A DNA stretch of 64,000 nucleotides from Candidatus Methanosuratincola subterraneus (GCA_004028775.1 RXGA01000001.1:1-64000), one strand, 5' to 3'; counted from the first letter of the stretch, positions 2,836 to 50,813 are shown. Made by a program: numbers and translations. Notes: generated from the letters alone by a model not told the origin.

Positions 2836-3660
2836 TCATGGGTTGGATGGCTCACCGATATAAACCTCTTCCTCGTACCGGCGCCCGCCCAAAATTGCGC
2901 CCGCTCTTACCCTCCTGAAGGAGAGGCGCGACAAAAGATCTTGGAGCTTTGAATTGACTGTCTCAGGAGGATCCATGAGCCACCCTATTGGGATGCGAAG
3001 GTTGATCGGGCGTGACGGGATTATGTGCCTCGTTGACTTTATTGGGAAGAGGCGCCCGCTCAGTGCAGCCTCAAGGGCTTCATCCTTCTTTATTGCCGGG
3101 GGGACAATTACCCAAGAGAACTCCCCCTTTTTGAGCCGCAAGAAAGAGTCTTCCTCTGTCGCATAGGATATTCCGCACCCTTTGGCCCTGAGCTCGGTCT
3201 CTAGCTCGCTGAGCAAGGAATATGCGCGGTGTATCTCAAACCCTTCCTCAACCAATAACTGCGATCCCGATAAGCCTATGATCGCAAGGCTTGCCTTGCG
3301 GTCCATTATTGCAGCCAAGGCCTCCATTTCGTTGGAGTACTCGACCCTGATCTTTCTGTTCGGGAGGAAGATTGCCGGCGAGGCTATACAGCGGTCCCAC
3401 CGGGAGACGCCAATGGAGCTGGAGGCGTAGTCGTACATCGCCACTGGGGCTGAGAGGCAGCCCATCCGGCGCAGCGCCCAGTACCGGTGGGTCCCGTCTA
3501 GTATCATGAGGCTAGAGGCGTCCACGATGATCGGATCCCTGACCACCCGCTCGGTCTGCAGGGAGAGGGCGATCTCGTAAAGGATCTGCCTGTCATACTC
3601 TTCGTGGGGGCGGAGATCATCGATTGCCACTGAGGATATGGTCGGAAGGCGGGAGCTCAA
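2836..3660 (-). CDS. ParB/Srx-fold protein, possible free serine kinase (SerK-like)
   Basis: 274 residues. The N-terminal half has the ParB/Srx pattern: a DDLRPHEEYDRQ start, an RDPIIVDASSLMILDGTHRYWALRRMGC core and a following VAMYDY strand. The C-terminal half has a KSTRHIIPSRP motif. This arrangement recalls the archaeal free L-serine kinase SerK rather than a chromosome-partition ParB, because no DNA-binding helix-turn-helix domain follows. If so, it would make O-phosphoserine. The start is TTG at 3660; an in-frame GTG at 3630 would also keep the domain whole. It is the first gene of the leftward operon. Confidence 0.55.
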   Translation of the reverse strand: MSSRLPTISSVAIDDLRPHEEYDRQILYEIALSLQTERVVRDPIIVDASSLMILDGTHRYWALRRMGCLSAPVAMYDYASSSIGVSRWDRCIASPAIFLPNRKIRVEYSNEMEALAAIMDRKASLAIIGLSGSQLLVEEGFEIHRAYSLLSELETELRAKGCGISYATEEDSFLRLKKGEFSWVIVPPAIKKDEALEAALSGRLFPIKSTRHIIPSRPINLRIPIGWLMDPPETVNSKLQDLLSRLSFRRVRAGAILGGRRYEEEVYIGEPSNP

Positions 3661-6446: not shown

Positions 6447-6481
6447 ATTTTTTGCTTTTTCAAACCCAATTTTTGTTTTTT
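6447..6481 (+). terminator. T-rich terminator after the thermosome gene
   Basis: Three T-runs of five or six follow within 35 bases of the stop codon, as expected for archaeal intrinsic termination. No strong hairpin is present. Confidence 0.55.
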
Positions 6482-6577
6482 AACAGCATGCATCTATTCG
6501 GGCTTTTTTTCAGCGATGGGACTGCGCCAAGCAATGTTTTAATTCCTGTTTCATTTAGACCAACAGGGCCACCCGCG

Positions 6578-7150
6578 ATGAAGAACACAATAGTCATTAC
6601 AGGCACCCCCGGAGTTGGGAAGACAACAGTAGCAAGAGAGTTGGCAAGGGCAGACGGGTATAGGCTAATCGAGCTGAACTCGCTTGCCAAGGAGGCTAGG
6701 GCGCTCTCAGGCGAAGATCCTGAGAGGGGGGCAGCGATAATTGACGAGGCCAAGCTGAAGAGGGAGATCGCCAAGGCGCTGAAGGCAGACGGCCCAAAGT
6801 TCATTGTAGAGGGGCATTATGGAGAGGTTGTCCCCCCCAGGTATGTGGAGAGAGCGGTTGTGATAAGGCTCGATCCAAGGATATTGAGGCTAAGGCTTGT
6901 AGAGAGGGGATACCCCCCCTCAAAGGTCGATGAAAATCTCCAGGCAGAAATCCTCGACTCCTGCCTAGTCAACGCAGTCGAGGCATTTGGTGAGGAGGCG
7001 GTCCTGGAGGTCGACGCCACAGGACTTGACTTCCAGCGGCTAGTTGCGAGCGTCAGGGAAGCGATAAACGGCCGGGGACTGCCCCCAGGGAGCGTCAATT
7101 GGGTTGAACGGCTCCAGAAGGAAGGGGCTCTCCACGATTTCCTTCGCTGA
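6578..7150 (+). CDS. AK6/Fap7-type adenylate kinase
   Basis: 190 residues opening with MKNTIVITGTPGVGKTTVAREL, a Walker A motif right at the N-terminus as in AK6 (Fap7, COG1936). The family has adenylate kinase/ATPase activity and takes part in final maturation of the small ribosomal subunit, with uS11 as partner. The VEGHYGEVVPPRYVERAVVIRLDP segment is typical. The frame is open back to 6452, but only the ATG at 6578 gives the family N-terminus, and it has a TATA-like TTTTAATT near 6537. The tail overlaps the convergent ATPase gene by 56 bases. Confidence 0.85.
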   Translation: MKNTIVITGTPGVGKTTVARELARADGYRLIELNSLAKEARALSGEDPERGAAIIDEAKLKREIAKALKADGPKFIVEGHYGEVVPPRYVERAVVIRLDPRILRLRLVERGYPPSKVDENLQAEILDSCLVNAVEAFGEEAVLEVDATGLDFQRLVASVREAINGRGLPPGSVNWVERLQKEGALHDFLR

Positions 7151-8909
7151 TCGACCGAGATGCAGAGAGCAGCGGATCGGCAGACACCTTGACGAAGAAG
7201 TTTCCAGACTTGCTCGGAAGGCTCACTATTGCTTCGCCGACAGAGAGGAGGGGTATTGCGCCCACTTGCCTCTCGTCCATCGAAGTGGATGCCGCTATCA
7301 GTTGCAGGTCTTCCCCTGATCTTATTGCATGTATAACCCTCACGGCAGTGTTCTTGACTACATCCTGGGACACAGACGAGGGGAACTGGGATATGACGAC
7401 GACCCCCTCCCCAAATTTTCTGAGCTCGGCGAGTATCCTCTCGCCTATCGTCATCGGGTCTTCGGGGCGCCTGGGGGGGAAGACATTCTGGGCCTCCTCG
7501 ATGAAGAGGACGTGGGTCAGAACTGAGCTCCCTCCCCTCTGGACGCAGTAGTCGTAGACCATCTTCATCAGGATGTTCGCATAGATCGTCCTGTTGTTGA
7601 CGTCCTTGAGGTTTGTCAGATCAATGGAGACCAGACCCTGGAAAATCTCATCCCTCGGGATTGAATCGTTACCGGACAAGGCAAATCCGCATGCCCCCTC
7701 TGTGAACGACTTGAGACGCCTCATAAGCGCCATCCTCGTCTCGTGATCCCAGCTGGATCGCATGGGCAGCAGGCTCAGCTCAGCTATCAAGTCAGAGACG
7801 GTCGGGGTGATTTTGGACCTGAATGCCGCCTTGAGCGCTTCCCTGAACATATAGGACTGCGGAGGGGTAAAGCGGAAGACTTGGGCAAAGATGTCAGTGA
7901 TGAACTCAACTTGGAAACCGAGGTCTTTGCCGCTGAACCCTGACAGCGGGTTTATGGTGAGCCCGCCTTGGGTGCCTGGCTTCAGCACCCTCCCGCCAGC
8001 GTCCTCGACTGCCAGGGAGTGCTCGCCGTGCCAGTCCAAGATGAGGACTGAGCATCCCAAAGAGTAGAGCCGGAGGGCCAGGCTCATTGCAGTTGTGGAT
8101 TTGCCGCTGCCTGTAGCCCCAAATATCGAGACGTGGCGCCTGATGTCGGTGAGCGGGATGCAGAGGGGAGCCACTTCCTTGCCCCTTGAATAGACAAATC
8201 CTATCAAAGGCCCCCCGCTGGTTATTGGCGGCTGCACGGCGGGCACCAAGGAAGATGGCTCTTGGCGATCTGGCGGGGGCGGGACGGCTGAGATGGCCTC
8301 CCCAGATGGCGGCTTTGCAATGCCGCCGATCTCCCCCAGCGAGTAGGGCAAAGGTGAAGAGAGGATCAACGATAAATCTTTCTCGTCCAGTCGCCTTGTC
8401 TGCGCTCCCGGGAACACCAGGCTGACCAGGCTCTCCAGCTGCCTCAAGGCCATCTCTGCCCTCTCGGAGAGGGCAATCCTGTCGTCAGAGCAGAACCATG
8501 CAATGAGCAGGGCCTGGCTCCCGCTTGGCGATTCTCGGAATGGGGAGGATCCCGGTAGAGAGTACATTATGTAGGCGGTCGGCATCCCGAATGATCCCAT
8601 AGCCTCGGTAAACCTGCATAGGCGCTCGTATGCCAGCTCTTTCTCGAACCGGTCAAAAGAATTGTCTTGGGAGGTGCTTATCGAAAGGGCGACAGCCGAA
8701 TACCGCTTGCCTCCAAACTCGAGGATGGGCGGCGATTGCCCTAGCCTGAGCGCTGCCCCGCTGTACGGGCTGCGCTCCACCAATTTAGGTACGATCGCGG
8801 AGAGAATAGGGATTGAAATCGAAAAAGCTGCAGCCAACGGGATCGACAAATAGTCTTTCAGGAACAGGAAGCTGATTATTGCGAGAAAAAATGAGGGTAT
8901 TATGGGCAT
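7095..8909 (-). CDS. Membrane-anchored HerA/VirB4-like (DUF87) ATPase
   Basis: 604 residues. Residues 5-42 hold one or two membrane segments. A variable region with a Pro-rich linker (about 200-230) follows, then a HerA/FtsK-superfamily motor: Walker A GATGSGKST at 264-272, LILDWHGEHS near 289-298, Walker B VLFIEEAQ at 467-474, and an arginine-finger region near 519-533. Soluble HerA lacks the N-terminal membrane part. Membrane-bound members include VirB4-like ATPases and CedB of archaeal DNA import. It is the last gene of a leftward locus with pilus-assembly genes, so it probably powers transfer or assembly at the membrane. What it moves is not known. The start is ATG. Confidence 0.8.
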   Translation of the reverse strand: MPIIPSFFLAIISFLFLKDYLSIPLAAAFSISIPILSAIVPKLVERSPYSGAALRLGQSPPILEFGGKRYSAVALSISTSQDNSFDRFEKELAYERLCRFTEAMGSFGMPTAYIMYSLPGSSPFRESPSGSQALLIAWFCSDDRIALSERAEMALRQLESLVSLVFPGAQTRRLDEKDLSLILSSPLPYSLGEIGGIAKPPSGEAISAVPPPPDRQEPSSLVPAVQPPITSGGPLIGFVYSRGKEVAPLCIPLTDIRRHVSIFGATGSGKSTTAMSLALRLYSLGCSVLILDWHGEHSLAVEDAGGRVLKPGTQGGLTINPLSGFSGKDLGFQVEFITDIFAQVFRFTPPQSYMFREALKAAFRSKITPTVSDLIAELSLLPMRSSWDHETRMALMRRLKSFTEGACGFALSGNDSIPRDEIFQGLVSIDLTNLKDVNNRTIYANILMKMVYDYCVQRGGSSVLTHVLFIEEAQNVFPPRRPEDPMTIGERILAELRKFGEGVVVISQFPSSVSQDVVKNTAVRVIHAIRSGEDLQLIAASTSMDERQVGAIPLLSVGEAIVSLPSKSGNFFVKVSADPLLSASRSISEGNRGEPLPSGAVQPN

Positions 8910-8912
8910 TTC

Positions 8913-9131
8913 TCAGCCAATCCTGAAGAATGAAAGGACTTGGTTCAAGGAATTCCGCAGGTTCTCGATAAATTCGTTCCCATTGAAGAGAGAGAGGTTG
9001 AATGTGTTCTGGACTCCTGAAAGCAGACCGACAATGATTGACATGACTACTGTCAGCGTCACTATAGATAGGCCAAGCAGCAACCCCTCTTCGACCAAGG
9101 GCGAACCCCTTCTCGAAAAACGCCTTCGCAA
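8913..9131 (-). CDS. Prepilin-like small membrane protein
   Basis: 72 residues. The N-terminus reads as a class III signal: basic MRRRFSRRG, then S-P-L-V-E-E and about 20 hydrophobic residues. Cleavage after Gly9 would leave Glu at position +5, the mark of a type IV pilin. The rest is a short Asn- and Phe-rich domain. The start is TTG at 9131. It lies four bases before the HerA-like gene and after the T2SF gene, so it may be the main subunit or a minor pilin of this locus. Confidence 0.65.
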   Translation of the reverse strand: MRRRFSRRGSPLVEEGLLLGLSIVTLTVVMSIIVGLLSGVQNTFNLSLFNGNEFIENLRNSLNQVLSFFRIG

Positions 9132-9158
9132 AAATTTTCCCCCATAGATCTTGCGGCT

Positions 9159-9950
9159 TTAAAAAGCAATGCCCACGGCAACCACCAGGGCAAGGTAAGT
9201 CACGAAGTAGGCGGCCGATGCGCGGAGAGCAGACCCTAACCAGCCGACGTGGGGGAGGGCTTTGGTGGGGAGGTACGACGACAGTAGCGCTATCGAATAG
9301 AAAACAGAAAATGCTGGAAAATCAAAACTGATCATGGGCCTGCCCATTGCCGCGCCCAGCCGCTGTTCGGAGAAGAAGGATCCCAGTATCGGGGAGGCGA
9401 AGGCGGTTACTGCCAAGGAGGCCGAGGAAATCATTGAGAGCATCTTAAATCGCATCGAAATTGCCCTCAGCCGCACCTCGAGGTCTTGCCTTACCTTCCT
9501 TCGATCCTCCCTCAATTTAACCAAGGACCTGAGCCGCTCAGATGACGAGGCTCTGTCAAACCCGAGCAGTGCCGCGATGGCCTCGAAAGTCTGGCTCTCA
9601 AAATGCATCTGCTTGGAGAATCTGCGCACCACGGATGCGGCGGCAACGCCCTCCCTGAGCTCTAGCAGAGGCTTTAAAAGCCGCTCATCTGGCACAGAGG
9701 TGCTGAATGCCCTGACGAGGGCTTCCCCTGGTGAGGTCGAGCCCAAGAGCCTCGAGAATGCAAGCAGGAAAGGGGCAGTACTGTCAGATCCGCCACTCTT
9801 GGAGACCCCGCGGATTTTCATCAGCCTGTCGAGCACGAGTAGCAGAGGCGGCAGAACAAGCACCCACGAAATGCCTCGGACGGAGGCGAGGGGCACGGTG
9901 ACAAGGATTGAGACCAAGATTGCCAGAGGGCTTGGGAACGCGCGCCTCAT
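9159..9950 (-). CDS. T2SF-like pilus assembly membrane protein (TadC/FlaJ-like)
   Basis: 263 residues with two hydrophobic segments near the N-terminus (about 9-42), a soluble helical middle rich in Arg and Glu with the pattern of a T2SF domain (PGEALVRAF near 73-81), and three or so membrane segments after residue 170. Such proteins form the inner-membrane platform on which the TadA-like ATPase acts. Its ATG overlaps the stop of the next upstream T2SF gene, so two platform proteins are translated as a pair, as TadB and TadC are in Tad systems. The match is by layout, not by strong motifs. Confidence 0.65.
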   Translation of the reverse strand: MRRAFPSPLAILVSILVTVPLASVRGISWVLVLPPLLLVLDRLMKIRGVSKSGGSDSTAPFLLAFSRLLGSTSPGEALVRAFSTSVPDERLLKPLLELREGVAAASVVRRFSKQMHFESQTFEAIAALLGFDRASSSERLRSLVKLREDRRKVRQDLEVRLRAISMRFKMLSMISSASLAVTAFASPILGSFFSEQRLGAAMGRPMISFDFPAFSVFYSIALLSSYLPTKALPHVGWLGSALRASAAYFVTYLALVVAVGIAF

Positions 9951-10741
9951 GAAAGGATCGCCTCGAGCCCCTTGAACCAGCAGAATATCGCCGTTAGCGC
10001 AGCGGAGAACGCCAGGATGAGTAGGGGAGACAATGGCGTGGACGCAAGCCCCCAGACAGCCATGACCATTGACAACCCTATGGGCAGGATGGTCGAGAGA
10101 GCGATAAGCAAGGAAAGCATGTCCTCTGCCTTTAGGATCCTGCCGTGCAATTCATTGTACCAATTCGAAATCACAGGCGAGATCTCTCCTTCCCTGCCAT
10201 TGACCGCAGACTTTACCCAATCTGAACAGATGTCTTTGCCGCTGAAGGACTGGAGTATCGCCTTCTCAGGCCTAACGCCGTCCCTCATCGACATGATCGC
10301 TTTACTGAAGTTTCCAGAAGCGCTTCCTGGCACTTCTGCGGCCTTGCTAGCGGCAAGAGCAAGATTCCCAGTGGCGAGGAGCACAGTAGCAAAGATCTCG
10401 AATGAGTGGGCAGCATCGAAGAGATCCCTTATCCCGGATCCCGCGTCAGTGATCCACGGAAGGACGGCAAGGAGAGCTGCCGCAACCGGCACTGCCAGAG
10501 CCGAGTGCAGGGGAAGGCCAAAAAAGAGGATCGCGATCAGGATGACCAAAGTTGAAAGCGCAAGGAGGTTGAGCCCCGCAACAAGGAGGCCCCTGCCTGC
10601 GACCCCAAGCACTTCGATTGCGTCGTAGCCCAGTACGGTGGAGAGCCGCGCCAATGAGCGGGACGGCAGGATTGACCTTCGGCAGAAGGCGTTGAGCGAT
10701 GCGCTTCGGGCTTGCGTGTGGTCCTTTTCTAGGAGGGGCAA
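9947..10741 (-). CDS. T2SF-like pilus assembly membrane protein (TadB-like)
   Basis: 264 residues: a basic N-terminus, two membrane segments (about 48-100), a soluble helical T2SF-like region with a DGVRPEKAILQSFSGKD stretch, and two C-terminal membrane segments. This is the order seen in TadB/GspF-type proteins. It partners the following gene through an ATGA overlap and is preceded by the TadA-like ATPase gene. The start is TTG at 10741 with only a weak SD, so the exact N-terminus is uncertain. Confidence 0.65.
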   Translation of the reverse strand: MPLLEKDHTQARSASLNAFCRRSILPSRSLARLSTVLGYDAIEVLGVAGRGLLVAGLNLLALSTLVILIAILFFGLPLHSALAVPVAAALLAVLPWITDAGSGIRDLFDAAHSFEIFATVLLATGNLALAASKAAEVPGSASGNFSKAIMSMRDGVRPEKAILQSFSGKDICSDWVKSAVNGREGEISPVISNWYNELHGRILKAEDMLSLLIALSTILPIGLSMVMAVWGLASTPLSPLLILAFSAALTAIFCWFKGLEAILS

Positions 10742-10756
10742 GGCAGATCAATCCCC

Positions 10757-12460
10757 CTACGCGGCTATCGAGATCTTCCTGTACGCAGGCGTGGGCTCTA
10801 GCTGTCCGGAAGCAGCATCCCAGAGGAATAGGTCCCTGAGCGGCGGTATCTCGACCGGGGGCTCGTCGTGCACTACCTCGGATATCCTTACAACCCTTCT
10901 GGCAAAGTTCCCTTCGATGTCGAACCTCCGCATCTGCACCAGCACCCCCAAGTCAGACAAGGAGATCAGCGGTATGTGGTGTTGGTAGGCGAACCTCCTC
11001 AGCAGCCCTTCCCCGGATGGGGCGTGCACTGTGTGTATGCAGCGAATGCCTGATGCCAGAATTTGGAACAGGGCCCGGCTGTCGGACTCGGAGAGGACTT
11101 CCCCAAAGAAGACGTAGTCAGGGGATTTGTGGAGCAGGCTGTCCAGGACCGATCTGCGCCTCTCTGCGGCCTCTCCAGACCCTGTCGCAGCGAGCAGCCT
11201 GACCTGGTGCTTCCCAAGGTGGCGCTGCGTTATGTTCTCTGCGATGTCGGATTCCACAGAGTATTTCCTCCAGTGCTGAGGGGTCTCGAGGTCGAGGGCT
11301 ATTGCGAGCGTCGTCTTGCCAGAGCCGCTCTCACCATAGATGCTGAAGCTGCTCCCAGCCCTCAGCTTCATGAGCAGGTATGAGACCGCTTCGGGCGGGA
11401 TTGTCTTGTTCTTGACCAGCATTTTGAAATCGGTCGGATTCCTGAAGAACTTACGGACATCGACCGAAGCCCCCTCAAATGAGAGTGGCGGGGCGTCGAT
11501 AGAGACCCTTGCATGGAACTCGCTGGTCTTTATCGATGCCTTTATTGAAGGGTTCATGTAGTCAGATGCCCTTCCTGAGCTTGCGGCAGAAAATGCCAAA
11601 AGCCGATCGATAACTTCTGGAGTGACCCAAACCGCTGATTCGCACCTGCCAAACTCCCTGTGGTCTATGTATGCAAATGTCATGGGGGAGTCGGCATAGA
11701 ATTCTCCGACATTGTCGTCAATGAGGAGGGGGAGGAGGTTTTCCAGCCCGACGGACGAATACAGGGCAAAGTTCTCGGCAGGCACACTCATCCTCGAAAA
11801 TTCCCTCAGGATTGCCCTCCTCTCCTCGATGACCTTCCCTAGCTCTATCGAAAAAGGGGGCTTGAGTCGCATCTCCTCATGCACCCTGACCTTCCTCATG
11901 AGCCTGAAAGACTCTATCCTTTCTTCAACCGAGAGGGAACACAGCACAGGGACGTATACAAGGCGTCCAGAACGCCTCAGCATGTAAACGGAATATGGAG
12001 GGATCGAGTACGCTGGAGGCCCAAAGGAGATGAGACCGGATGGCACAACCTGCGGGCGGATGGCAAAGCGGAGCTCACCCCTTGGGATCATAAGGGACCT
12101 TAAACCAGCTAGCTCGCCGCATGCCCCGCAAAGCCTGCACCTGATCCCCTTTTTGTGGATGTGTATCCCCAAACGGACTTTCGAAAGCAGCACGGGCCAT
12201 TCGCTGTTACGCGAAGAGCAGACCTCCCTTGCAAAAGCGCATCCCTTTGCCTTGGTCGAGAGGATCCCAATGCTGAGCATGAGATCCTGGCAGACCCGCT
12301 TAATCATCTGGAACTGATCGCCGGTTAGGAGGAGGCTTCTCTTACCCAAGAAAAGGCAGAGCGCGCCCGGTCCGGGAAGATCTTCATGGACCTGCTCGAA
12401 CTCAGAGAGCGACATCCAGGGATCGAGGTTTCGGTATATCCTAAGGGAACCTTCTCTCAA
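10757..12460 (-). CDS. TadA/VirB11-like secretion ATPase with a Cys cluster
   Basis: 567 residues. The C-terminal half is a GspE/VirB11/FlaI-type motor: Walker A GESGSGKTT at 376-384, an Asp box (YSVESDIAENI) near 400, Walker B DYVFFGEV at 448-455 and a His box CIHTVHA at 474-480. The N-terminal half has Cys at about 74 and 81 and a C-x2-C-x2-C group at 108-114, which could bind a metal. It would drive pilus assembly by pushing on the T2SF proteins encoded next. The start is TTG at 12460, overlapping the preceding small gene; an ATG at 12415 is the alternative. Confidence 0.82.
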   Translation of the reverse strand: MREGSLRIYRNLDPWMSLSEFEQVHEDLPGPGALCLFLGKRSLLLTGDQFQMIKRVCQDLMLSIGILSTKAKGCAFAREVCSSRNSEWPVLLSKVRLGIHIHKKGIRCRLCGACGELAGLRSLMIPRGELRFAIRPQVVPSGLISFGPPAYSIPPYSVYMLRRSGRLVYVPVLCSLSVEERIESFRLMRKVRVHEEMRLKPPFSIELGKVIEERRAILREFSRMSVPAENFALYSSVGLENLLPLLIDDNVGEFYADSPMTFAYIDHREFGRCESAVWVTPEVIDRLLAFSAASSGRASDYMNPSIKASIKTSEFHARVSIDAPPLSFEGASVDVRKFFRNPTDFKMLVKNKTIPPEAVSYLLMKLRAGSSFSIYGESGSGKTTLAIALDLETPQHWRKYSVESDIAENITQRHLGKHQVRLLAATGSGEAAERRRSVLDSLLHKSPDYVFFGEVLSESDSRALFQILASGIRCIHTVHAPSGEGLLRRFAYQHHIPLISLSDLGVLVQMRRFDIEGNFARRVVRISEVVHDEPPVEIPPLRDLFLWDAASGQLEPTPAYRKISIAA

Positions 12461-12587
12461 TCTCTTCTACCTTCTTAGACACCAGGCATATAGAGTACTC
12501 AAGGATCGCGATCCGCTCTTCAAGCATGGAGATGGCATCGCCACTCCTACTCGTTTGGAAACGATCGGCCTCCTGACAGTTTACCAT
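12441..12587 (-). CDS. Small coiled-coil protein leading the pilus operon
   Basis: 48 residues from ATG at 12587 (MVNCQEADRF), ending in a heptad-like helix (ISMLEERIAILEYSICLVSKKVEEIE). The start is set by a TATA box on the minus strand 32 bases upstream and by a GGAG about nine bases before the ATG; a TTG at 12626 is in frame but lies inside that TATA box. It overlaps the TadA-like gene by 20 bases, which suggests coupled translation. No family is recognised. It could dimerise with, or regulate, the ATPase. Confidence 0.5.
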   Translation of the reverse strand: MVNCQEADRFQTSRSGDAISMLEERIAILEYSICLVSKKVEEIERRFP

Positions 12588-12611
12588 CAGATCAGCCTCC
12601 AAAATATGCCA

Positions 12612-12664
12612 GAACTTATATGGCAAACCGCCATTGAGGAGTCCTCCCGTGGGCTTTTATAAGG
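12612..12664. promoter_or_regulatory. Divergent promoters between the two pilus operons
   Basis: On the minus strand CATATAAG (12616-12623) lies 32 bases before the small coiled-coil gene. On the plus strand TTTATAAG (12655-12662) lies about 25 bases before a GTG at 12684. The machine genes and the pilin-like genes therefore share a control region of about 100 bases, with room for a common regulator. Confidence 0.55.
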
Positions 12665-12683
12665 GGTCTAATAGCGTGAGAAG

Positions 12684-12903
12684 AGTGCCCTCTCGGATAG
12701 TGGTCTTTGGCACTTTATTGCTGTTCTGGATCCTGATCGCCACCGCGATCGGCGAGGGCAGCCTAGGGCTCTTCTTCGAGATTATCCAGTCCCTGGAAGG
12801 CGGGCACGAGGGGATTTTCTTGGCAGCAGTGGAGAGTATGAATAGCACAGGCAGGTTCGAAGTCAATTTCAATGGAATAATGGGGTTAGTTGAAGATGGA
12901 TGA
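12684..12903 (+). CDS. Small membrane-anchored, pilin-like protein
   Basis: About 72 residues with one hydrophobic segment close to the N-terminus (RIVVFGTLLLFWILIATAIG) and a short extracytoplasmic part containing two N-glycosylation sequons (NST and possibly NFN). The GTG at 12684 is chosen because a TATA box at 12655-12662 would start transcription there; a GTG at 12675 in frame is nearly as good. It is first of four overlapping rightward genes with the same single-helix plan. No family is recognised beyond that plan. Confidence 0.45.
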
Positions 12904-13099
12904 CGAGATGCTGGAATTCCTCCTAATGGTCCCAGTGATACTTGCCATTGTGGCAATAAATGCGACGGTGCTGGAGGTCATTGATAGCCAGATAGAAGAT
13001 CTTGAGGGGTTCAATATGACGCTGGGGATGGCTCCTTGCGCATATGCGATCGACAACGCCTCGGGCAACGTCTACCCGGAGGTCCTCTGCGGTGGATAA
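12896..13099 (+). CDS. Small pilin-like membrane protein
   Basis: 67 residues from ATG at 12896. The acidic start (MDDEMLEF) leads straight into a hydrophobic helix (LLMVPVILAIVAINATVLEVI), followed by a short domain with two Cys. Overlap with the previous gene (stop at 12901-12903) points to coupled translation. The look of a mature type IV pilin N-terminus without a leader is notable, but no PilD-type cleavage site is visible. The function is inferred only from its place next to the Tad-like machine. Confidence 0.5.
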   Translation: MDDEMLEFLLMVPVILAIVAINATVLEVIDSQIEDLEGFNMTLGMAPCAYAIDNASGNVYPEVLCGG

Positions 13100-13418
13100 G
13101 GGGCAGGTCCCCCTGATCGATGCGCTGGGGGCGCTTCTGGCAGCCATTCTAGTGCTCTCAGCGGCATCACTAGCCCAAGCAGGTTTTGGGGCTGATCTTG
13201 ATGAGATCGCGGAGAAGGAGAGCCTGAGGCAAGAAATTTACCATCTGATTGCCTCCGGGAACATGACTCATCTTCTTGATTTGTGCGCTAAGCAAGGCAG
13301 CCTGGATATTGGAGGCATCAGGTTGAGCCTGGATGAGCCCGAAAATGGGCCTTATGTGGCGCTACTTTCCAGCAGGGATGGGGGGATCACGCTATTCTAC
13401 GCAACAAGAAAGGGGTAA
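13092..13418 (+). CDS. Prepilin-like protein with class III-type signal
   Basis: 108 residues from GTG at 13092: M-D-K-G, then QVPLIDALGALLAAILVLS. Lys-Gly followed by a hydrophobic helix is the pattern of an archaeal prepilin cleavage site, with Asp at +6 where Glu at +5 is more usual. The body has a mixed alpha-beta composition and one Cys. It overlaps the previous gene by eight bases. Upstream frame to 13044 is open but would add an Arg- and Ser-rich stretch that looks like out-of-frame translation. Confidence 0.6.
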   Translation: MDKGQVPLIDALGALLAAILVLSAASLAQAGFGADLDEIAEKESLRQEIYHLIASGNMTHLLDLCAKQGSLDIGGIRLSLDEPENGPYVALLSSRDGGITLFYATRKG

Positions 13419-13420
13419 TC

Positions 13421-13882
13421 CTGACCGCCAGCGAGTTAATTATACTGCTCCTCGTCCTGGTCGCCGCGTTAACCGTAAATGCCCAGCGCAGGGAGCTAAA
13501 GAGGGAGGCGGAGGCAACAGATCTCCTGAAAGGATTCGAGTTCACGTCATACAACCTGCTCTTCGACCTCTGCAGCTACCTCAAAGCACACGAAAATTTC
13601 GCTTCGCTCGAGGAGGCTAGCCAAGGGATCACCCAACTGCTGGATCGGTGGTGCTCGCAAATCAATAGCAATGCCAAGAGCGGTGGCGTGTACAGCCTAT
13701 CGGTTCACATCGAATCTGTCTTGGTCGAGGAATACTCCGGGCAGGCCGTGGATAGCTGCCAGATGCGCTTTGCTGGCAAAACGGGGGATGAGAAGTGGCT
13801 GGTGACTGGGGAGTTGTATGTCGAGTTCTGGAACGAGGAGATTCTCTTCAGGGCTAACCACAGGATCAAGATAGCAATCTGA
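13421..13882 (+). CDS. Pilin-like protein without a canonical start codon (CTG likely)
   Basis: An open frame of about 153 residues follows the previous stop by two bases: (M)TASELIILLLVLVAALTV, then a Glu-Lys-Arg-rich helix and a beta-rich end (VYSLSVHIESVLVEEY, WLVTGELYVEFWNEEILF). The frame contains no ATG, GTG or TTG before the hydrophobic helix; the first GTG and ATG are far inside the protein. CTG at 13421 has an AAGGGG SD about five bases upstream and puts Glu at residue 5, as in mature pilins. A -1 slip on AAAGGGG at the end of the previous gene is the other explanation. Coding is supported by length and sequence quality. Confidence 0.6.
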   Translation: MTASELIILLLVLVAALTVNAQRRELKREAEATDLLKGFEFTSYNLLFDLCSYLKAHENFASLEEASQGITQLLDRWCSQINSNAKSGGVYSLSVHIESVLVEEYSGQAVDSCQMRFAGKTGDEKWLVTGELYVEFWNEEILFRANHRIKIAI

Positions 13883-13917
13883 AACGCAAGTAGAAAAAGA
13901 GGATAGTAGGGCGGAAG

Positions 13918-14853
13918 CTAGATCTGGGCAGCGAGCATTTTGGACTGGGAGGCGCCGTTAGTGAAGACCGTTGAAAGATGGCTCCGCAGCGTGTACTCGG
14001 CTATCCCCACATCCTTGGAGAACTGCGACTTGGTCAGTATGCTTTCGGCCGATCTTGACTCTGCAAGGATCTTATTAGCTAGGAAAACTGCCGAAGCCGC
14101 AAGGAGGTATGGGTTCTTGCCTGATCTGCGGGGCGGGGGGAGGCCTGCAAGAAGAACTTTAGAAAGCGACAAGAGCCTCTGGAAGTAGTCGTCGGGTTCA
14201 AAGCCGATGAGGCGGATCCTGACTTGGATGAAAGGAGATGTGCGCAACTTTTCGACAACCCTGCCGAGATAATCCTCTGACTGATGGAATTTCTTGTTGA
14301 ATGGGATGAAGAAAGAGTGGAAATTAAGGTTCTTTGCGACCACCCTAACGGATAGCTTGTACCCCCTCCGCTTGAAGGCATTGACCAGCTCGGGAAGCCG
14401 CACCGGTGCGCGATCGCCAAATTCCCTAGAGACCGAGGCCAGGCACACCGCCATCAGCATGCCGTAGTTCCCGTAAGGGTTCCTGAGTTTGGAGAGGAGC
14501 TGATCGAAGAAGTTCATTGCCGTCTCAACAACCTCCCTGGGCATGCAGAGTTCCACCGCTATCAACTCCAAATCTCGGCGGAGCTGGAGCATATTGAGGC
14601 ATGATCCGTTGTATGCAGACTCCTGAAGCCGCTTGAGCCGAATATACTTCGCCTGAGTTTCTGGGGAGAGCTTCCTTTCTGATGAGTCGGTGAAGAACGC
14701 AGGCCCCTTGGTTATGAGGCTCCCCAACCGCTGCTTCTTCCCAACCGGCGGATTGTAAAAGTCGCAGTTACTATGGACAAGGCCGCACTCTACGCAAACA
14801 AGGTTTCCGCTGCCGTCTGGGATCAAAACGCCTTTGCATTCATCGCAGCTCAT
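13918..14853 (-). CDS. Transcription factor B (TFB) paralogue
   Basis: About 311 residues. An N-terminal zinc ribbon has two Cys pairs (CDEC, then CVEC 14 residues later), followed by a linker with a basic KKQRLG stretch in the B-finger region and two cyclin-like repeats (from about residue 85 to the end). TFB bridges TBP-TATA and RNA polymerase. The ATG at 14853 has a GGTGGTGG SD and matches the usual ribbon start; ATG at 14880 is in frame. It converges on the pilin-like genes. Sequence details in the repeats are divergent, which suggests a secondary TFB with a restricted set of promoters rather than the housekeeping one. Confidence 0.8.
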   Translation of the reverse strand: MSCDECKGVLIPDGSGNLVCVECGLVHSNCDFYNPPVGKKQRLGSLITKGPAFFTDSSERKLSPETQAKYIRLKRLQESAYNGSCLNMLQLRRDLELIAVELCMPREVVETAMNFFDQLLSKLRNPYGNYGMLMAVCLASVSREFGDRAPVRLPELVNAFKRRGYKLSVRVVAKNLNFHSFFIPFNKKFHQSEDYLGRVVEKLRTSPFIQVRIRLIGFEPDDYFQRLLSLSKVLLAGLPPPRRSGKNPYLLAASAVFLANKILAESRSAESILTKSQFSKDVGIAEYTLRSHLSTVFTNGASQSKMLAAQI

Positions 14854-15121
14854 TTCCACCACCAAAAATGTATTCTTCATGGCTGAACTGCACGGCTAGC
14901 AATCCCAGGGGCTTTAAGATTTACCAGCAACAGGCTTCCTATCCGGGGGCGCACATGTGCATTTGGACGAAGCAACCATCTCAAAACGAGGAGAGCCGGC
15001 ACTAGGAGAAAGAGAGGGAGGGGCGAAACTGAAGGGGCGGCAGGTCCTGCCTAGCCAGCAGGATTGGCGCCCACTTTGATAACCCCTTGGATCCCCTGGC
15101 TTCCCAAGGCGTTGCTTTGCA

Positions 15122-47835: not shown

Positions 47836-48135
47836 ATGATAGAAAGATGCTTTGCGATGAACGAGCTTGAGACGGAGATCCAAGGCCTCTTGACGGAGCT
47901 CCCAGAGGAGATGGCAAGAAAGATCGGGGGGACCAAGGAGTACTGGATAGAGCGATTCAGCAGCAGCCCGGTAATGCAGAAGATTGTAGAGGACGCGCTC
48001 AGGTGGTCGATCAGGAGATCCCAGAGCTGGAGCAAGAAGGAAGGGAAACCGATACGATACTACCTCAAGATGATAATCGATAACGGCGACATCCCGGAGT
48101 GGATTTCCTGGCACGCCAAGGCCATGGAGTTTTAG
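47836..48135 (+). CDS. Unknown helical protein
   Basis: 99 residues from ATG at 47836; ATG at 47854 (MNELETEIQ) is a second choice. Mostly helical and charged: LLTELPEEMARKIGG, EYWIERFSSSPVMQKIVEDALRW, with a basic middle and a Trp-rich end (IPEWISWHAKAMEF). No signal or membrane segment. I do not recognise a family. The long frame back to 47677 crosses the promoter and is not coding. Confidence 0.5.
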   Translation: MIERCFAMNELETEIQGLLTELPEEMARKIGGTKEYWIERFSSSPVMQKIVEDALRWSIRRSQSWSKKEGKPIRYYLKMIIDNGDIPEWISWHAKAMEF

Positions 48136-48200
48136 AAGTGCCAACAAGCTTCACAAAAACAAATACCTTTTTTTACACAAAAGCTAACATCTATTTTTAG

Positions 48201-48359
48201 GTGAACAAAGTGCCAGAGGAGAAGAAAGGCAAGGTTGAAGAGGCTGCTGAAAAGACAGGAGAGGTAATCGGGAAGGGGCTGAAGAAAGGGATCGGCGTTG
48301 CCAAAGCATTTGGCAAGGGCGCAAAAGAGGCGGTCTCTAAGGACGAAAAGAAAGAATAA
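48201..48359 (+). CDS. Small Lys/Gly-rich protein
   Basis: 52 residues from GTG at 48201 (GTG at 48210 also possible). Nearly all residues are Lys, Glu, Gly, Ala or Val, with a repeated helix-like pattern (KGLKKG, KAFGKGAKEA). No Cys, no Trp, one Phe. A TATA-like AAATACC lies near 48160 and a T-run follows the stop. It could be a nucleic-acid-binding or stress-type hydrophilic protein; no family is recognised. Confidence 0.55.
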   Translation: MNKVPEEKKGKVEEAAEKTGEVIGKGLKKGIGVAKAFGKGAKEAVSKDEKKE

Positions 48360-48500
48360 ACTCTTAATTTTTTTAGTCCTTGAATTTTGTTTGCAGATCA
48401 AGATTGGCAGCTAAGGCTCATGTATCTCAGCCTGCAGGCAAGAAGATTCCTAACCTTTATTAGCATGCTGATATTTTCTCCATCAGTAGAATTGTGAATC

Positions 48501-48579
48501 GGGGCCGTAGTCTAGCTTGGACCAGGATGCAAGCCTGGGGCGCTTGTGATCTCGGGTTCAAATCCCGACGGCCCCACCA
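48501..48579 (+). tRNA. tRNA-Pro (GGG anticodon), CCA encoded
   Basis: Acceptor GGGGCCG/CGGCCCC, anticodon stem CAAGC/GCTTG around loop CTGGGGC (anticodon GGG), T loop TTCAAAT, discriminator A, encoded CCA. No intron. A TATA-like CTTTATTA lies about 45 bases upstream. Confidence 0.93.
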
Positions 48580-48592
48580 TCACAAAAAAAAG

Positions 48593-48871
48593 TCAAGTTC
48601 CTTTAGGAGGCTCTTGCTTGACTACGACTTCTAACTTTTGCTTTCTTGTAGAGGCCGCCAAAGAGTAAAGCAGCCACGCAATTATCCCATAAATTACCCC
48701 ATTTAAAATCGAGGCTGCAAAGACTGGTGCAGGGAGGCCGAGTATTGGATAGTTGGTGTCAGGAAAACCAAGCATGTAGTATATGTTGAGTCCTGGAGGT
48801 ATAGATGTGTTAGATGTCGTCACCACGACTCCTATAAGGAAAACCACTATAAAGACCAACGCGCCTTTCAT
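48593..48871 (-). CDS. Small two-helix membrane protein
   Basis: 92 residues from ATG. An N-terminal hydrophobic segment (ALVFIVVFLIGVVV), an outer loop with Pro, Tyr and Asn, a second segment (VFAASILNGVIYGIIAWLLYSL) and a Lys-rich cytoplasmic tail. Unknown function. It converges on tRNA-Pro. Confidence 0.55.
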   Translation of the reverse strand: MKGALVFIVVFLIGVVVTTSNTSIPPGLNIYYMLGFPDTNYPILGLPAPVFAASILNGVIYGIIAWLLYSLAASTRKQKLEVVVKQEPPKGT

Positions 48872-48936
48872 TACAACTCACCAAATTTTCCCTTGAACTA
48901 TTTTTCAGCTATGTGATATAAAAGAAGAGGGTCAAT

Positions 48937-49284
48937 TTATCCGAGACCCATCTTTGGCTCTTTCGACTTTTTCTTAGATTCCATTATCAGAACTTTGTCG
49001 TGGAAGTCTCCACCCTGGACGATTCTGATAACAGGCCCGTCAGGAACCTCGTATTCAGTTCCTTTTTCTTGCGGCGCTTTCCTCACCTTCGTCCCCTCTG
49101 GGAACGTCACCTTGTATACTTTGTCAATGGGGTCATGCTCAATATGACCGCAACTCTCGTTGTCGCAGCCCTTGTACCTGACAAATTCTACTTTTATTCC
49201 AGGAAAATTCATCAAGTCAAGTACGTTTGCGCCCCAAACCTCCACTTCCAATTGTTTTTTGCTCAAAAAACACCACCATGTCAT
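48937..49284 (-). CDS. Unknown small protein
   Basis: 115 residues. Trp- and Cys-containing start, a KGCDNESCGHIEHD segment that could bind a metal, beta-rich middle (VYKVTFPEGTKV) and a Lys-rich tail. The start is uncertain: ATG at 49284 stands next to TATA-like sequence, and the TTG a few codons in (LSKKQLEVEVW) is also plausible. No family is recognised. Confidence 0.5.
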   Translation of the reverse strand: MTWWCFLSKKQLEVEVWGANVLDLMNFPGIKVEFVRYKGCDNESCGHIEHDPIDKVYKVTFPEGTKVRKAPQEKGTEYEVPDGPVIRIVQGGDFHDKVLIMESKKKSKEPKMGLG

Positions 49285-49381
49285 TTTATAACAAGAGGAG
49301 ACTATAAATTTTTAGTTTTTTCCGAAGATTCTAACAATTTGTCCGAAAAATTTAATCATGCAAATTTATTAATTGAGTTTG

Positions 49382-49654
49382 CTATCTGAAGGCGCTTCTT
49401 CGTAGGAGGGCGATTAAGATATAGAATATCACAAAATAGATGGTCAGATCGATTGTAAAAACCACCAGCTGACGCATAATCGACTCGAATAAAGCAAGAC
49501 CTTCTAAGCCAAGCGGGGGAGTTGAAAAGGAAGAAGTTATGTAATCAATAATAGGCCAAAAAAATCTGCTCAATAGGTTGAGATATCTGACGTCAACAAT
49601 GGAGACCGTGAACGCTAGTAGGAGAGAAGCTTCCTCGATCTCCCTTTGGGGCAA
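49382..49654 (-). CDS. Small hypothetical membrane protein
   Basis: About 90 residues with hydrophobic segments near 10-22 and 62-84 (VVFTIDLTIYFVIFYILIALL). The start is TTG at 49654 with no good SD, so the N-terminus is unsure. The local DNA is AT-rich. No family is recognised. Confidence 0.4.
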   Translation of the reverse strand: MPQREIEEASLLLAFTVSIVDVRYLNLLSRFFWPIIDYITSSFSTPPLGLEGLALFESIMRQLVVFTIDLTIYFVIFYILIALLRRSAFR

Positions 49655-49865
49655 TTACTCACTTCCGATAGAATGTTTCACAAAGTGCTTAATAAAATAT
49701 ACTTTGTAACTGTTTTTAAACTAAAATTGATAACTGCAATATGCCTGATGCTTCAAAAACAGCCCTGCATTGCTCATGTCAAAAGGCGCCCATTTCGAAA
49801 AATCGAACTTCGACACCCTTAAATTGATGCCACCATATCCTTTACCTAGTCACGAGGAAAATGCC

Positions 49866-50813
49866 ATGGTTAACCCCTCGATCGAAGCAGTGGATCTTAC
49901 GAAGTGCTACAACTCATTCTGCGCCCTCTCTGATCTGAGCCTCCGACTCGAAGGGGCAAAATGCGTAGGGTTCCTTGGACCGAACGGGGCCGGAAAGACT
50001 ACAGCACTGAAGATACTCACAGGATTGATCCGCCCCACCAAGGGCAAGGCACTGATTAATGGTATCGACGTCCAAGAGGACAAGAAGGCTGCGCTCTCGA
50101 CCTGCGGGGCGCTGATAGAGACCCCCGAGATCTACCCCGCGCTCTCCGTGAAGGAGGCCCTAATGATGGTAGCAGAGATCAGGGGGGTCCCATCAGCAGC
50201 CCGGAAGGACGCGGTGATGAAGGCGATCTCGGAGGTGAAGATGGAGGAATGGATAGACATGAAGTGCGGGAAACTGTCCAAGGGCATGAGGCAGAGGGTC
50301 AACTTGGCTGCTGCGCTCATTTCGGATCCGATGATAATGCTGCTGGACGAGCCTTCTTCCGGGCTGGATCCGAGGGGGATGGCCGAGGTGAGGGAGATCG
50401 TCAAGGGGCTCAAGAAGAAGGACAGGCTGATATTCATGAGCTCGCACCTCTTGAGCGAGGTGACCGAGATCTGCGACGAGGTAGCGATATTGGATCACGG
50501 GAGGCTCCTGGCATATGACACATTAGAGAGGTTGACTTCGGCACTGTCGGTTGGCAATGCCAGGGAATGCGAGGCATCATTTTCAAGGGACCTGAGTAGT
50601 GATGCATTGAAGGAGATCGGATCGACAGAGGGGGTTTTGGGTTTGAAGCTCGTCGAGCCCAGGAGACTAATATTGAGCTTTGAGGGCGGGAATGAGGCAC
50701 AGGAGCGGATCCTGGCGAAGATTGCAGGTTTGGGGGTTGGGCTCATTGCTTTCAAATCCTCGTCTTCCGCACTGGAGGAAACCTATCTAAGGCTTGTGAA
50801 GGACTCGAGGTGA
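49866..50813 (+). CDS. ABC transporter ATP-binding protein
   Basis: 315 residues. Walker A GPNGAGKTT, signature LSKGMRQRV, Walker B IMLLDEPSSGLD and the switch His in MSSHLLSEV. The short C-terminal domain after residue 225 is typical of drug- or NatA-type exporters. ATG at 49866 has a GAGGA SD; the frame is open to 49770. The permease gene overlaps its end. The substrate is unknown. Confidence 0.9.
   Translation: MVNPSIEAVDLTKCYNSFCALSDLSLRLEGAKCVGFLGPNGAGKTTALKILTGLIRPTKGKALINGIDVQEDKKAALSTCGALIETPEIYPALSVKEALMMVAEIRGVPSAARKDAVMKAISEVKMEEWIDMKCGKLSKGMRQRVNLAAALISDPMIMLLDEPSSGLDPRGMAEVREIVKGLKKKDRLIFMSSHLLSEVTEICDEVAILDHGRLLAYDTLERLTSALSVGNARECEASFSRDLSSDALKEIGSTEGVLGLKLVEPRRLILSFEGGNEAQERILAKIAGLGVGLIAFKSSSSALEETYLRLVKDSR

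Follow-up and report, generated by a model that had tools for sequence, protein, structure and literature searches.

A type IV pilus locus of Candidatus Methanosuratincola joined to a relative of the ATPase CedD

Gene content of the locus

We studied a pilus locus in the first 64,000 nucleotides of contig RXGA01000001.1 (GCA_004028775.1) from the methane-producing archaeon Candidatus Methanosuratincola subterraneus; this whole stretch is here called the window. The genome, of 1.51 Mb, belongs to the phylum Thermoproteota, and the closest named contig is JARYLH010000012.1 (91% identical protein). The locus joins the genes of a predicted type IV pilus (T4P) to a gene, here called cedD, for a membrane-anchored ATPase related to CedD of the Ced system of Sulfolobales.

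An earlier interpretation made from the DNA alone (the sequence-only reading) had described a leftward operon of a secretion ATPase, two T2SF proteins, a prepilin and a 604-residue ATPase with membrane segments, together with four diverging pilin-like genes. All of these are present, see Table 1. The unit is larger than the 7095-13882 proposed there: a divergent TFB (TFIIB) paralog belongs to it, and the cassette spans 7095-14880. The gene order is TGT, Lsm, TFB, pilin-like genes, pilus ATPase, platform proteins, prepilin and cedD, followed by the convergent genes for an adenylate-kinase-like protein (AK) and the thermosome. The AK gene (6452-7150, plus strand) shares 56 bases (7095-7150) with the 3' end of cedD, and in relatives the two genes likewise overlap or lie close together.

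Table 1. Features of the pilus cassette, in window coordinates. A slash marks the boundary within a prepilin signal.
Feature	Position	Strand	Basis
CedD relative, 604 residues; two N-terminal transmembrane helices, CedD-type N-terminal domain, HerA/VirB4-fold ATPase	7095..8909	-	
Prepilin, 72 residues; class III-type signal RRG/SPLVEE, then hydrophobic helix	8913..9131	-	sequence; orthologues
T2SF platform protein B (TadC-position half)	9159..9950	-	orthologues match PF00482
T2SF platform protein A (TadB-position half)	9947..10741	-	orthologues match PF00482; hhalign UpsF
Type IV pilus assembly ATPase (FlaI/TadA superfamily)	10757..12460	-	Pfam, NCBIfam, PDB matches
Small coiled-coil-like open reading frame before the ATPase, 61 residues from TTG; an internal ATG gives a shorter protein	12441..12626	-	
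Divergent promoter region, two TATA-like elements: ATATAAG on minus, TTTTATAA on plus	12594..12665		intergenic alignment
Pilin-like gene 1, one N-terminal hydrophobic helix	12676..12903	+	conserved position and N-terminus
Pilin-like gene 2	12896..13099	+	conserved position
Pilin-like gene 3, signal DKG/QVPLIDALGALL	13092..13418	+	motif in relatives
Pilin-like gene 4, signal KKG/VILTASELIILLL	13394..13882	+	orthologues
Divergent TFB (TFIIB) paralog, probable dedicated regulator	13918..14880	-	TFIIB model 1e-6

The 604-residue ATPase

The sequence-only reading had called this protein a HerA-family or VirB4-type ATPase, which holds for the fold and not for the identity. Against the NCBIfam models it scores 202.5 bits for CedD (1.1e-59), 59 for HerA, 21 for VirB4 and 17 for CedB; the CedD match covers the ATPase part. 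The N-terminal profile of the pilus-linked proteins matches that of Sulfolobales CedD in hhalign at 96.7% (E 4e-10) over 227 columns that include both transmembrane helices, compared with 44% for CedB and 1.3% for the HerA control. In the window protein the two hydrophobic helices lie at residues 3-21 and 22-40, and the Walker A motif (G264-K270) and E471/E472 are invariant. Its AlphaFold2 model has a mean predicted local distance difference test score (pLDDT) of 75, about 90 in the ATPase part, and is closest in Foldseek to HerA (4d2i, the best) and VirB4 (4ag6). The architecture is that of CedD: a membrane segment, a CedD-type N-terminal domain and a C-terminal HerA/VirB4-like ATPase.

In agreement with the profiles, an IQ-TREE phylogeny of 79 sequences, built on the ATPase core only, groups the window ATPase with Sulfolobales CedD in a part of the tree to which neither HerA nor CedB belongs, with low inner supports (42-68). 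The profile comparison and tree that the sequence-only reading had proposed as a check thus point to CedD, which outscores all of VirB4, CedB and HerA.

The protein misses the curated cut-off of the CedD model NF053655, which is 600 bits. This model is narrow, since the 25 of 397 genomes of our phylum sample that pass the cut-off all belong to f26, the Sulfolobales-type family (families are numbered f, loci L). For this reason we speak of what by sequence is a full-length CedD relative and not of a certified CedD. In families f49, f35 and f43 the gene is found as two open reading frames, one for the membrane and N-terminal part and one for the ATPase part (L163 10235-10921, L164 6941-7558, L166 8473-9027).

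Other identities were rejected. For a HerA repair helicase the N-terminal domain does not match and there is no Mre11/Rad50/NurA neighbourhood at the cassette; relatives have another gene, at a different locus, for true HerA (L048, beside Mre11/Rad50-sized genes). CedB and VirB4 are rejected by the NCBIfam scores, the tree position and genome searches: CedB (NF041017) is absent from the genome and 40 relatives, with a positive control in S. acidocaldarius, and VirB4 (PF19044) is found neither in the genome nor in congeners, nor in four f12 genomes, so that the sensitivity of this model for archaeal TedB is unproven.

The pilus machine

The pilus ATPase matches T2SSE (PF00437) at 9e-8 and, in the PDB, FlaI (4ii7) at 4.7e-23. 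Its NCBIfam score is higher for FlaI (2.6e-22, 79 bits) than for bacterial TadA (1.2e-13, 51 bits). The platform consists of two separate proteins of 263-264 residues each and not of a single fused protein of the UpsF type. Neither has a Pfam match of its own, and the T2SF similarity is visible through orthologues only: the positional orthologues of protein A match T2SSF (PF00482) at best at 1.7e-5 and those of protein B at 3.1e-5, while hhalign against UpsF gives 63% for A and a weak match for B. Because the ATPase profile is nearer FlaI than TadA, and the likeness to Tad is limited to the split platform, the machine is best classified, from its profiles, as an archaeal T4P with a split platform. 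The description as Tad-like in the sequence-only reading suits the platform better than the ATPase.

Orthologues of the prepilin have 62-87 residues and lie directly before cedD in cassette loci; the 72-residue protein is the probable main pilin. A class III prepilin peptidase is encoded elsewhere in the genome, beside a FlaI/TadA-superfamily ATPase at C2:343946, and in family f35 a type IV prepilin peptidase (PF01478) lies inside the cassette (L164 11535-12113, L165 4903-5472). Secretion ATPase, T2SF platform, class III prepilin and prepilin peptidase, the parts that define an archaeal T4P, are then all present. The genome also encodes four further FlaI/TadA-superfamily ATPases (C6:444082, C2:343946, C1:254470, C2:11203), and therefore several other type IV filaments coexist.

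The four small one-helix genes are assigned as pilin-like by their N-termini and position. From the sequence their likely starts are 12676 (GTG), 12896 (ATG), 13092 (GTG) and about 13394 (non-standard). Relatives of the first have an MPSR-type start and those of the third the motif [KR]GN..LIDA; the AlphaFold2 model of the fourth (pLDDT 79) shows a long helix and an antiparallel sheet. The small open reading frame before the ATPase is kept in loci of the genus and family, and small cytosolic reading frames occupy the same position in f45, f49 and f43. The TATA-like elements of the divergent promoter are largely kept within the genus, as seen in an alignment of eight genomes.

Conservation and inheritance of the cassette

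In the phylum sample of 397 genomes the pilus ATPase and cedD are on one strand and no more than about 4 kb apart in f14, f24, f35, f43, f45, f49, f59 and f67; f1, f2, f3 and f7 also have them linked, which brings the total to 12 families. The recurrent cassette consists of a TFB paralog, three to four pilin-like genes diverging from the ATPase, two T2SF platform proteins, the prepilin and CedD. It is present in the seven congeners (in G005 the contig holds the cedD end only), in the other members of family f1 apart from those of three genera, and also in f2. The prepilin lies directly before cedD in nearly every locus whose neighbourhood was read. Since this order is kept in 12 families, despite strong sequence divergence, the cassette is not a chance arrangement; the gene order that the sequence-only reading had proposed to look for in related archaea is indeed there.

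Further, the cassette is lost as a whole. It is missing, TFB and cedD included, from five f1 genomes of three genera (90-98% complete), where Lsm and AK are adjacent, 50-172 bp apart. The TFB paralog, too, is lacking in these five genomes and in no others of f1. Pilus machine and CedD relative are one conserved, co-inherited locus, and the proposed joining of a pilus to a membrane-anchored HerA/VirB4-fold ATPase is borne out. In f4 and f9 the TFB paralog lies beside the pilus ATPase even without an adjacent cedD, and in the fragmentary genome G020 TFB and a 211-residue cedD end are kept while the pilus genes are gone. The TFB paralog probably controls the cassette. In Sulfolobales the TFB paralog TFB3 activates the ups genes (PMC10470591); we regard the likeness between the two as a functional parallel only.

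The gene cedD is also found without pilus genes. On the Desulfurococcales contig L076, and in L182, L184, L187, L190, L193, L194 and L199, it lies between TGT (with or without Lsm) and the thermosome gene (with or without AK), and in Metallosphaera (L074) it faces the thermosome gene. Because it has the same place beside the thermosome gene in Sulfolobales and Desulfurococcales, the window cedD is a positional orthologue of the solo cedD, and the pilus block occupies the gap. The sequence-only reading had held that the link would be accidental if homologues occurred in unrelated neighbourhoods or clustered with HerA repair proteins. CedD does occur without a pilus, but in the same chromosomal place and with no such clustering, which argues for a shared history and not for an accidental link. 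The deep nodes of the CedD tree are weak, and it is compatible both with a loss of the pilus in Sulfolobales and Desulfurococcales and with a gain elsewhere. A mobile element or conjugative plasmid was rejected as the source of the cassette in view of the fixed chromosomal site between housekeeping genes.

The small open reading frame upstream of solo cedD has no homology with the small one of the cassette; in L076 it encodes a protein that resembles RNA polymerase subunit G. In f64, where cedD has no pilus, the open reading frame directly upstream encodes a TFB-like protein of 223-225 residues with a TFIIB-type zinc ribbon (L183 6012-6683, L185 8251-8928). In f25 (L200) another T4P-type ATPase and two UpsF-like halves lie directly before a CedD-like gene.

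Neighbouring genes for DNA transactions

In nine loci of f3, f4, f6 and f7, further families of the same class, a Rad3/XPD helicase gene comes next after a CedD-like gene, and the two often overlap. Family f6 combines an UpsE-like ATPase, UpsF, a DNA ligase, a CedD-like ATPase and Rad3/XPD (L051 3064-12855; also L052-L054 and part of L056); by gene content this appears to be another kind of pilus that has a CedD-like motor and genes for repair next to it. Among the relatives UpsF was found in f6 only (NF046075, 6.6e-66).

ComEC was not found in the genome of the window. Since neither CedB nor a detectable VirB4 nor ComEC is present, the CedD relative is the sole recognised candidate import motor in this genome.

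Possible function of the cassette

These results suggest that the cassette encodes a pilus that may capture DNA, or attach to a mating partner, so that DNA can be drawn into the cell. The role in DNA exchange that the sequence-only reading thought possible is still an inference. We consider it somewhat likely that it is a T4P for DNA import, or for joining partners plus DNA import. The secretion ATPase and split platform would extend a thin pilus, and might retract it as in CpaF; the pilus would consist mainly of the 72-residue prepilin, tipped by the four pilin-like proteins, and would touch DNA or a partner cell. Anchored through its two helices in the same membrane, the CedD relative may then act as a hexameric, ATP-driven cytoplasmic ring that pulls DNA inward for recombination, while the adjacent TFB paralog would switch the locus on. 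Contact between the two motors is plausible.

Several lines of evidence lead to this reading. CedD is the best NCBIfam match, the N-terminal domain matches Sulfolobales CedD, and the tree agrees. CedD, described in 2025, is essential for DNA import in Saccharolobus islandicus, the one species for which this requirement is known and in which the Ups T4P is also needed (PMC11868833). Twelve families have retained the cassette, five genomes have lost it in one piece, Rad3/XPD and ligase are neighbours in related loci, the other import motors were not found and a prepilin peptidase is present. In Liberibacter, DNA is taken up by means of Tad pili that have a single motor (PMC8513845). A cultured congener forms aggregates (PMC12244365), which fits a DNA pump and a pilus motor alike.

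Some observations weigh against DNA import. The CedD cut-off is missed, and no gene for a VirB6- or CedA-like channel was recognised in the cassette, including CedA and CedA1. Pilus ATPase and cedD are apart in f4, f6, f47 and f55; in f55, as in f50, the two are on different contigs and cedD has no pilus gene next to it. The solo cedD of Sulfolobales, Desulfurococcales and others belongs to the same list, as do the unproven heads of the pilin-like proteins and the model of the fourth, for which Foldseek gave no significant PDB match.

The main rival to DNA import takes the CedD relative for a second motor of the pilus, one that extracts or energises pilins or powers secretion, in a pilus for adhesion or aggregation, import in Sulfolobales being a later use. 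VirB4 has been proposed to extract or energise pilin. The VirB4-type fold, the linkage to pilus genes, in which cedD comes immediately behind the main prepilin, the locus in f13 that keeps the prepilin-cedD pair only (L177) and the aggregates of the congener agree with such a role, but HerA-fold motors with known substrates move DNA, and f3, f4, f6 and f7 have Rad3/XPD and ligase as neighbours. Further, deletion of CedD in Sa. islandicus abolishes DNA import, and Ced is not involved in aggregation (PMC11868833). We hold a second pilus motor to be unlikely, yet worth keeping in mind.

It could also be argued that cedD was always beside the thermosome gene and that a pilus operon settled upstream with no shared function, as CedD has the same place without a pilus in Sulfolobales and Desulfurococcales and the tree leaves a single gain against a loss of linkage unsettled. 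This is strongly disfavoured, and we give it little credence: TFB, pilus and cedD were lost together in five genomes of three genera, the order has survived strong divergence in 12 families, and CedD-like genes also stand beside an UpsE/UpsF-type pilus in f6 and the split-platform pilus in f25. Least probable of all is conjugation-like export, with a pilus that links the cells while DNA is pumped out by the CedD relative in the manner of VirB4/VirD4 systems. The VirB4-like fold and the pilus genes in the same cassette would suit it, but relaxase, VirB6 and VirD4 genes were not found in the cassette, the site is fixed between housekeeping genes and not mobile, and loss of CedD in Sa. islandicus hits import and not export (PMC11868833).

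More tentatively, the cassette might represent a new class of archaeal competence pilus, in which a T4P operon supplies its own inner-membrane DNA pump (CedD) and TFB switch. Archaea generally lack ComEC, and Ced and Ted are not known outside Thermoprotei. Encoded at a single locus in 12 families, among them that of a genus from which a methanogen has been cultured, a pilus with its own CedD motor is a candidate for natural competence or mating outside Sulfolobales. CedD could have originated in such a cassette, and the TFB paralog provides a handle on regulation. If the linkage is ancestral, Sulfolobales CedD would be the remnant of a pilus system, and CedB and CedA of Ced would have been added later.

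Comparison with known systems

The window protein resembles CedD of Sa. islandicus (SiRe_1715, NF053655; PMC11868833) in its two transmembrane helices, N-terminal domain, HerA/VirB4-like ATPase and homology over the full length, as well as in its chromosomal place, convergent with AK and thermosome. It differs in its score (202 bits against the cut-off of 600), in its operon with T4P genes and in the absence of CedB. In Sulfolobales, T4P and CedD are both needed for DNA exchange (PMC11868833, PMC9905601) and there is a TFB paralog, TFB3, that activates ups (PMC10470591); however, T4P and Ced are in separate loci there, UpsF is a single fused platform and CedB is present.

With archaeal T4P (Ups, Aap, archaellum, bindosome; PMC4858521, PMC6668835) the cassette shares a FlaI-superfamily ATPase, a T2SF platform, a class III prepilin and a shared prepilin peptidase, while the platform split in two, the DNA-translocase-type ATPase at the end and the dedicated TFB paralog set it apart. 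Like the bacterial Tad pilus (CpaF/TadA, TadB, TadC; PMC11300603, PMC8513845), which serves DNA uptake in some bacteria, it has one assembly ATPase, two platform proteins and a small prepilin; in contrast, its ATPase is nearer FlaI and a CedD ATPase is added. No secretin, TadZ/CpaE or TadE/F was recognised among the cassette reading frames. With HerA-NurA it has the ATPase fold (4d2i) in common, and the N-terminal domain is unrelated.

The text of the 2016 census of archaeal T4P (PMC4858521) mentions HerA as superfamily background only, and the available parts of the CedD paper (PMC11868833) make no mention of such a T4P-cedD operon. Full-text literature searches, in which subscription papers and preprints are thinly covered so that priority is uncertain, gave no other paper on CedD in archaea and none describing the cassette.

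Other features of the window

An open reading frame at 2836-3660 has a weak ParB_N-like match (0.023) and stays near thermosome and histone genes across the family. At 48001-50000, around a tRNA-Pro gene (48501-48579), the GC (guanine plus cytosine) fraction is 0.43, compared with about 0.55 elsewhere, and this region may be an integrated element.

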